From Deltaproteobacteria bacterium (GTDB taxonomy: Bacteria; Desulfobacterota; Desulfobacteria; Desulfobacterales; SURF-15), in contig JAFDFZ010000014.1 in assembly GCA_019309565.1 (NCBI GenBank), forward strand, positions 1-64,000: a stretch of 64,000 nucleotides of DNA. Reading direction: 5' to 3'. The translations under genes were made by a program, and so were the position numbers. The notes beneath the pieces are model-generated. The model did no database searches, was not told where the DNA came from, and worked only from the letters and a program-made list of their open reading frames with translations. Within the stretch, counting starts at the first letter, position 1; the number at the start of each line of letters is the position of its first letter. Below, piece by piece: positions 2,022 through 55,661 of the stretch.

Positions 2022-2049
2022 GGTGTCAAATCTCGATCATTGATTTTAG
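2022..2049 (+). repeat. Left inverted repeat of the RAYT element
   Basis: 28-bp sequence starting GGTGTCAAATCTCGATC. It matches the reverse complement of 3031-3058 with two differences, at repeat positions 17 and 28. Confidence 0.9.
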
Positions 2050-2085
2050 GTTGTGGTGATCGATCTGTTGTGGTAATGACCCCTC

Positions 2086-3054
2086 ATGGCACGGGCATGG
2101 CGCATAGAGTTTGAGGGAGCCTTATATCATGTTCTTTCCCGCGGCAATGAACGGCGGGATATTTTCTTTTGCGATCACGATAGGCGTATGTTTTTAAGCA
2201 CTTTGGGCGAGATGGCGGATCGTTTCGCGATTGAACCTTGCGCCTATGTGCTGATGAACAATCACTATCATTTATTGCTCCACACCTTGCGGGCCAACTT
2301 ATCCAAAGCGATGCAGTGGTTTGGTGTCACATACACCAACCGGTTCAATGCAAGGCATTCCCGCAGCGGGCACCTGTTTCAAGGACGGTTTAAAAGCATG
2401 GTGGTTCAAAACGATGCCTATCTGCTCCGGTTATCCTTATACATTCACCGCAATCCACTGCGTGCAGGCCTTGTCGAACGGCTAGCCGATTACAGGTGGA
2501 GCAGCTATCGGGTTTACGCCTATGGGAAGCACGGGCCTGATTGGTTGAAAACGGAACGGGTTTTCAATCAGTTTCAAAATGTTAAAGACAGGCATGCAGC
2601 CTATCGAAAGTTGATTCAGCAATATGCAGAAGAGGAACAGCGGCTTTTGGAAGATTTGCGCCATGGTTTCATTCTGGGCACAGAGCAATTTGTGGAGCTC
2701 CTTAAAAACCGATTTCTGCTGGCCACTGCACACCGTGAAGTGCCTCAACAGAAACGGGTACTCAAGGATGTGGATCTGGCCGCAATTCTGGCGAAGGCCG
2801 GTTTATTTTTGGGATGTAAGCCAGAAGACTTCAAGAAGGCCGCGCGTATTGCCCCAAGCCGGGTGCTTAACCGGGATCTGCTGCTTTATTTGATATGGCA
2901 GCTTGGGGTTTTGACAAATTCAGAGATCGGCTGTCTGTTTGGACTAACCGGCTCTGCAGTCAGCCGCAGGGTGAGGGTTCTGAAAGATAGAGCTTCAGTC
3001 GACAAAGAGATTCAAAGGAAAATCGAGGGCTTAAAATCAATAATCGAGATTTGA
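2086..3054 (+). CDS. REP-associated tyrosine transposase (RAYT, Y1_Tnp) with DnaA-like C-terminal domain
   Basis: 322-aa transposase. Residues 1-140 form the Y1 domain: the HUH metal site is H60-Y61-H62 in MNNHYHLLLH, and the probable catalytic tyrosine is Y119 in LYIHRNPLRAGLV. The C-terminal part (about 230-320) resembles the helix-turn-helix of DnaA domain IV (NSEIGCLFGLTGSAVSRRV), a fusion common in delta-proteobacterial RAYTs. Such enzymes nick and rejoin single strands at REP-like palindromes. The frame is intact, so the enzyme may be active. It is bounded by the inverted repeats described above. Start ATG 2086 lies 36 bp inside the left repeat and lacks a strong ribosome site. Confidence 0.9.
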   Translation: MARAWRIEFEGALYHVLSRGNERRDIFFCDHDRRMFLSTLGEMADRFAIEPCAYVLMNNHYHLLLHTLRANLSKAMQWFGVTYTNRFNARHSRSGHLFQGRFKSMVVQNDAYLLRLSLYIHRNPLRAGLVERLADYRWSSYRVYAYGKHGPDWLKTERVFNQFQNVKDRHAAYRKLIQQYAEEEQRLLEDLRHGFILGTEQFVELLKNRFLLATAHREVPQQKRVLKDVDLAAILAKAGLFLGCKPEDFKKAARIAPSRVLNRDLLLYLIWQLGVLTNSEIGCLFGLTGSAVSRRVRVLKDRASVDKEIQRKIEGLKSIIEI

Positions 3055-3058
3055 CACC
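3031..3058 (-). repeat. Right inverted repeat of the RAYT element
   Basis: Reverse-complement partner of 2022-2049. It contains the transposase stop codon (3052-3054) and ends just before the AAGAGGAG ribosome site of the next gene. Confidence 0.9.
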
Positions 3059-55533: not shown

Positions 55534-55661
55534 GGTGTCACATATTGATTAGGCTTTTTCTGCAACATTTAAATTAAGCCCCTCAATGAATAATCACTAA
55601 TCAAGATGCGACACCTTTTACACAATGAATAATCACTAATCAAGATGCGACACCTTTTACA
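55534..55661. repeat. Mini-element with RAYT-like inverted ends and a 39-bp tandem duplication
   Basis: A left unit starting GGTGTCACATATTGATTAGG at 55534 faces two right units ending GCGACACC. The right units lie in a perfect tandem duplication, 55584-55622 and 55623-55661, 39 bp each. The GGTGTC core and the following A/T-rich pattern resemble the ends of the RAYT element at 2022-3058. No open frame is inside, so it looks non-autonomous. The 469-bp stretch 55454-55922 otherwise holds no gene. Confidence 0.75.

Follow-up and report, generated by a model that had tools for sequence, protein, structure and literature searches.

The stretch analysed in this work, referred to below as the window, comprises 64,000 nt (positions 1–64,000) of contig JAFDFZ010000014.1 from a Deltaproteobacteria bacterium (assembly GCA_019309565.1). 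It contains a unit of 1,037 bp (2022–3058), the sole gene of which encodes a Y1 (HUH) transposase. The features of this locus, together with an array found farther along the window, are as follows.

363–1322, + strand: PHO4-type phosphate permease gene (Pfam), upstream of the DUF47 gene (context)
1366–2016, + strand: DUF47/PhoU_div gene, left neighbour of the unit (context; Pfam PhoU_div, 106 bits)
2022–2048, + strand: left terminal inverted repeat, 27 nt, GGTGTCAAATCTCGATCATTGATTTTA
2086–3054, + strand: TIRYT gene, encoding a 322-aa Y1/HUH transposase with H60-Y61-H62, Y119-IHRNP and a C-terminal DnaA-domain-IV-like helix-turn-helix (approximately residues 231–322)
3032–3058, − strand: right terminal inverted repeat, identical to the left one at 26 of 27 positions and holding the TIRYT stop codon
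3072–4223, + strand: gene for a SelA/DgaE-like PLP enzyme, right neighbour of the unit (context; Pfam SelA, 49 bits)
55584–55661, − strand: two identical 39-bp tandem units (78 bp), each consisting of TGTAAAA and a 32-nt end-like sequence, GGTGTCGCATCTTGATTAGTGATTATTCATTG

The arms of the unit pair at 26 of 27 positions and have an inverted-repeat score of 24; shuffling the 3′ piece 200 times gave a score of 10 at best. The 26 matches in 28 positions given in the initial annotation correspond to this 27-nt arm plus one unpaired outer base, so that its near-perfect inverted ends were borne out. The same is true for the remaining anatomy that it described: the TGA codon of the transposase gene (3052–3054) lies within the right arm, 5 bp separate the DUF47 stop codon (ending at 2016) from the start of the unit, and 13 bp separate the end of the unit (3058) from the ATG of the SelA-like gene (3072), which is preceded by the ribosome site AGAGGAG. 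For the SelA-like gene the nearest NCBIfam family is DgaE, with a score under the cut-off.

The transposase is recognized by the Pfam model Y1_Tnp (PF01797; 43.2 bits), while the NCBIfam model REP_Tyr_transpos (NF047646), which has a cut-off of 80 bits, gives 73.4. Residues H60, H62, Y119, N123 and P124 are invariant throughout an alignment of 16 homologues (16/16), of which 15 are 32–56% identical to the window protein. When the family profile built from this alignment was compared with the PDB, positions 231–322 matched DnaA domain IV (1j1v, E 4.4e-8; 8btg, E 1e-10) and positions 11–142 matched TnpA-REP (4er8, E 6.5e-5). Taken by itself, the window protein has no more than weak helix-turn-helix matches in Pfam, to MarR/AsnC models (MarR, E 0.0019); of six relatives scanned, two score above the cut-off for Bac_DnaA_C. 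An AlphaFold single-sequence model was set aside (mean pLDDT 41).

A homologue is present in 41 of 58 genomes searched, i.e., the own genome and 57 others of the same order, none of which belongs to the same genus or family. Scans of wider collections yielded one relative among genome contigs (35% identity), one among viral contigs (34%), one weak match among phages and 26 plasmid records, all below 60% identity. A 24-kb Pseudomonas aeruginosa plasmid record (NZ_CP116719.1, locus L093) carries three distant Y1 'transposase' genes among polymorphic-toxin cassettes.

The element can be placed with the help of published descriptions. The terms TIRYT genes and TIRtrons were coined for RAYT-like genes located between long terminal inverted repeats (TIRs), which lie at similar distances from the gene and in some cases overlap it (Di Nocera et al., 2013; PMC3733652). 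According to the same text, the motif GGGGWSAS is common to some TIRs only and is no requirement, and several types begin with GGGG. In a later survey most TIRYTs were assigned to TnpA-Y1 subclass 2.1, whose members have a C-terminal HTH or DnaA-like domain, are found without REPs and occur in about 1.9 copies per genome with 49% identity (Quentin et al., 2018; PMC6006769). This survey also calls for more analysis of TIRYTs, which are grouped there with proteins lacking typical IS features (Quentin et al., 2018).

The unit 2022–3058 is a TIRtron encoding a TIRYT, probably of TnpA-Y1 subclass 2.1, and not a REP-associated RAYT. With TIRtrons it shares the Y1 HUH transposase, terminal inverted repeats in place of REPs, a similar distance between repeat and gene and the overlap with the 3′ end of the gene. 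The window end begins with GGTGTCAA, which agrees with GGGGWSAS in six of eight letters and is off in two, and the ends of relatives from the window clade begin with GGGGTCAA or GGGGTCAC, the latter, found at L013, agreeing in all eight (L, G and C numbers are our labels for loci, genomes and contigs). With subclass 2.1 it shares the NHYH motif, a YIHxNP motif, a long C-terminal tail with a Bac_DnaA_C-like HTH and the lack of any REP found; the subclass has YIHLNP where the window protein has YIHRNP, and its DnaA-type tail is matched here by the family profile, whereas the window protein alone meets only weak HTH models. Group 1 of the RAYT survey by Bertels and Rainey (2017) is reportedly the counterpart of this subclass.

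REPtrons and RAYTs resemble the unit in their related Y1 core, in the pair of inverted ends around the gene and in the occurrence of ends as dimers or solos elsewhere, but the window unit has no high-copy REP family and scores below the cut-off of the NCBIfam RAYT model. The window end occurs at three places, at up to three mismatches, in its own 5.47-Mb assembly, hence there is no REP family behind the unit; judged by this count, no multi-copy REP palindromes accompany the gene. The initial annotation had called the gene a RAYT, tied to REP palindromes, and this label has to be replaced, as the branch belongs with the TIRYTs. Elements of the IS200/IS605 group (IS608-type) share the HUH/Y1 chemistry and the lack of a regular target duplication; in contrast to the 322-aa protein and 27-bp TIR of the window, they combine a TnpA of about 150 aa with subterminal hairpins on a single strand and lack a TIR.

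The anatomy of the unit is conserved in its clade. End repeats were scored at 31 loci with a homologous gene (23 of 30 examined, the other seven having been left out for truncated or doubtful frames, and eight fetched later). At 21 of the 31 an inverted repeat, placed at similar distances from start and stop, exceeded all 200 shuffles, and among these is the whole of the window's own clade (five members, the window and L013–L016); two more loci had a repeat reached by one shuffle in 200, and convincing inverted ends were absent by this scoring from eight. When a relaxed form of the window end (at most two mismatches) was searched for, it was found in 59 of 291 genomes of the same order, while the control, the reversed end pattern, matched nothing in any listed genome of this set. 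Thus the prospect raised in the initial annotation, that no other copies of the ends would turn up, did not materialize. All seven fetched cases of inverted end pairs about 1.03 kb apart hold a Y1 ORF of the window clade. Altogether 12 units of this clade, 1,033–1,045 bp long (1,036 bp for L015, with tighter boundaries), are located at mostly unrelated loci, and the other 11 are 62–67% identical to the window unit. At L015 (2366–2583) the G001 unit has its right end repeated 109 bp farther on together with the 3′ end of the gene, and this repeat adjoins an apparent IS3-type remnant.

In related genomes such units have moved as blocks. Two units in G261 are 94% identical and have unrelated flanks. 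G049 holds at least 11 copies of at least 1,050 bp, at approximately 97–99% identity, which lie at 0.95, 1.03 and 2.18 Mb as well as clustered within 45 kb near 3.85–3.90 Mb; its TIRYT belongs to a more distant sister clade with GGGACG ends and about 35–40% protein identity. The clearest case is the 1,041-bp unit of G124 (L202, 120–1160), which directly follows a terminator-like hairpin located downstream of an NrfD-like gene. In G087, a genome of the same genus, both flanks are contiguous (82% identity over 252 nt of joined flanks) and what is missing is the unit plus at most 9 nt, i.e., G087 has an empty orthologous site.

Of nine window-clade or short units tested, no other yielded a two-sided empty site, and none of six joined sites of G049 copies was contiguous in relatives. 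Two G049 copies were considered and rejected as two-sided cases: copy i has its left junction within a hairpin repeat of which five uninterrupted copies exist, and copy j has its left junction within an IS3-like element (judged by translation) of which an uninterrupted copy exists, the right flank of copy j being continuous in G097. At L141 (G049:C1:972900-973400) the same hairpin repeat is broken by unrelated DNA, at the very base at which copy i entered another copy of the repeat. For L014 and L016 the flanking gene is present in genomes of their own genera with a different other flank, therefore these sites were not usable as empty sites.

Together these data support, mostly by way of relatives, the claim of a true transposon with defined ends: there are like-sized units, ends in many genomes of the order, duplicates and one empty site. 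The other refuting outcome named in the initial annotation, that no empty site would exist anywhere, did not occur, but the one found is for the G124 unit in G087 and not at the window's own locus. As for its description of a single copy, one intact copy is indeed present in the assembly, but there are two decayed relatives as well: contig C259 carries a second copy, of which one end is clear, and contig C42 carries a relative of 560 bp that has both ends.

One may ask whether the gene is instead a domesticated, vertically inherited host gene in an immobile unit, with the repeats serving as autoregulation sites or mRNA structure. The single intact copy would fit this, as would the mostly low-copy and possibly domesticated state of class 2 Y1 proteins noted in the 2018 survey (Quentin et al., 2018; PMC6006769), and the 88%-identical units that follow the same NrfD-like gene in G028 (L014/L107) and G124 (L202) can reflect vertical inheritance. 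Units of near-constant length at mostly unrelated loci, the duplicate pair in G261, the empty site in G087 and the decayed relatives in the own genome speak against it, and we regard domestication as improbable. Still less credible is transfer of a larger segment, or homologous recombination, with the TIRYT already attached to one neighbour: synteny breaks beside several units (L014, L016) and rearranged genes flanking G049 copies would agree with it, but aligned units have their boundaries at the ends, and G124 differs from G087 in having gained the unit with no more than 9 nt besides.

The unit 2022–3058 is very probably an autonomous TIRtron, consisting of a gene for a TIRYT, a Y1 HUH single-strand DNA transposase with a DnaA-domain-IV-like tail, between 27-bp inverted ends starting with GG[G/T]GTCA. 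The DnaA-like tail would bind the inverted ends; at either end the HUH/Tyr119 site would introduce a nick 5′ of the GG[G/T]GTC foot, and the unit, cut or copied out, would then be joined to a new, mostly intergenic site with no regular target duplication. Among the 12 units no regular target duplication was seen: immediate repeats of at least 3 nt were found at none and one of 2 nt was found. In G124 the heptamer CTTTGAG occurs near both junctions, the right one offset by 2 nt, and mispaired flanks reach seven in 0.8% of cases; its reading as a target duplication is ambiguous. At L014, L183 and L015 the 4–6 nt preceding the foot are identical at both ends.

The window copy most likely came to lie between the DUF47 and SelA-like genes through TIRtron movement. 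The adjacency of these two genes was found in no other genome examined, and comparison of the DUF47–SelA junction in relatives, proposed in the initial annotation, did not recover it anywhere. The 11 nearest DUF47 loci retrieved (L095–L105) all lack a SelA-like neighbour; in two of them the contig stops within about 250 bp. Close relatives of the SelA-like gene were found among the 291 genomes only in G211 and G166, in both behind ABC transporter genes. On C270 the own assembly has a DUF47 paralogue (81% aa identity), which is followed by an EamA-type gene (judged by translation) and has neither a TIRYT nor a SelA-like gene alongside. The G028 unit has as its other neighbour a phosphate permease–DUF47 pair as in the window, with the DUF47 protein from a different branch. 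Since the adjacency of the DUF47 and SelA-like genes occurs nowhere else among the genomes examined, the claim that the SelA-like gene now depends on read-through from the unit is unsupported and is a guess; between 1900 and 3074 no sigma-70-like site was seen, in a promoter and terminator scan that yielded fewer sites than chance.

Ends of this type also occur in tandem with short pieces of flank. Within 50 nt outside the ends of the 12 units, the terminal hexamer occurs 8 times in 1,200 nt, in direct orientation only, as compared with twice in 21,786 nt farther out (Fisher p 2e-9, for cases that are not independent, as just 5 of the 24 ends, belonging to 4 units, account for all eight hexamers). 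The 5–9 bases ahead of the extra foot are those ahead of the element's own foot in 11 of 12 cases, which include two shorter units picked from nine for having such feet. Tandem arrays of solo ends behave likewise: seven stretches scanned held five of them, that at 55584–55661 included, and 6–11 preceding bases agree in five of five, while two random feet agree over at least five preceding bases in 0.35% of draws. The shared bases imply that the repeated unit is 5–11 nt of flank followed by 6–44 nt of end. The array at 55584–55661 represents solo ends of a related TIRtron type, and its unit has no further copy in the assembly at up to three mismatches. The window unit itself has no junction repeats; tandem units of flank and foot are seen at junctions in the flanks of L186, L187, L183, L184, L195 and L198.

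A plain tandem duplication of the junction yields the same picture, and the feature calling for a cause is the left limit, which lies constantly within 11 nt of the foot. It is possible, if rather doubtful, that the ends are handled singly, like REPs, and not in a paired synapse of the DDE type; the foot with 5–11 nt of flank may then be a strand-specific nick site, at which repeated or abortive reactions could leave junction tandems and solo arrays such as 55584–55661. Tandem units of flank and end at junctions and solo ends were not found described in the open-access literature.

Inverted dimers of ends, 86–91 bp long, were seen at L189 (631–721), L190 (661–751) and L191 (280–368) in G136 and at L194 (534–619) in G270. 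Their 26-nt ends are identical and their 34–39-nt interiors are unrelated, so that they are not copies of one MITE, and an ordinary MITE was ruled out on this ground. A search with the TIRs stripped did not identify the interiors as host DNA or otherwise.

TIRtrons are a known kind of element, little studied since 2013: the term TIRYT was not found in the open-access literature beyond PMC3733652 and PMC6006769, nor was biochemistry of any TIRYT found in the literature as far as its text was available. The evidence of mobility presented here is better than that found in print in the open-access literature; the present analysis adds empty sites, recent copies and tandem units at junctions, which do not appear in the available text of Di Nocera et al. 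(2013; PMC3733652). With an empty site, recent copies and a junction signature, both the mobility of TIRtrons and single-end cutting become directly testable. TIRtrons offer a mobile comparison group for work on REPs and RAYTs and, if the single-end handling is true, they would represent a relative of the REP/RAYT system that has kept its mobility.
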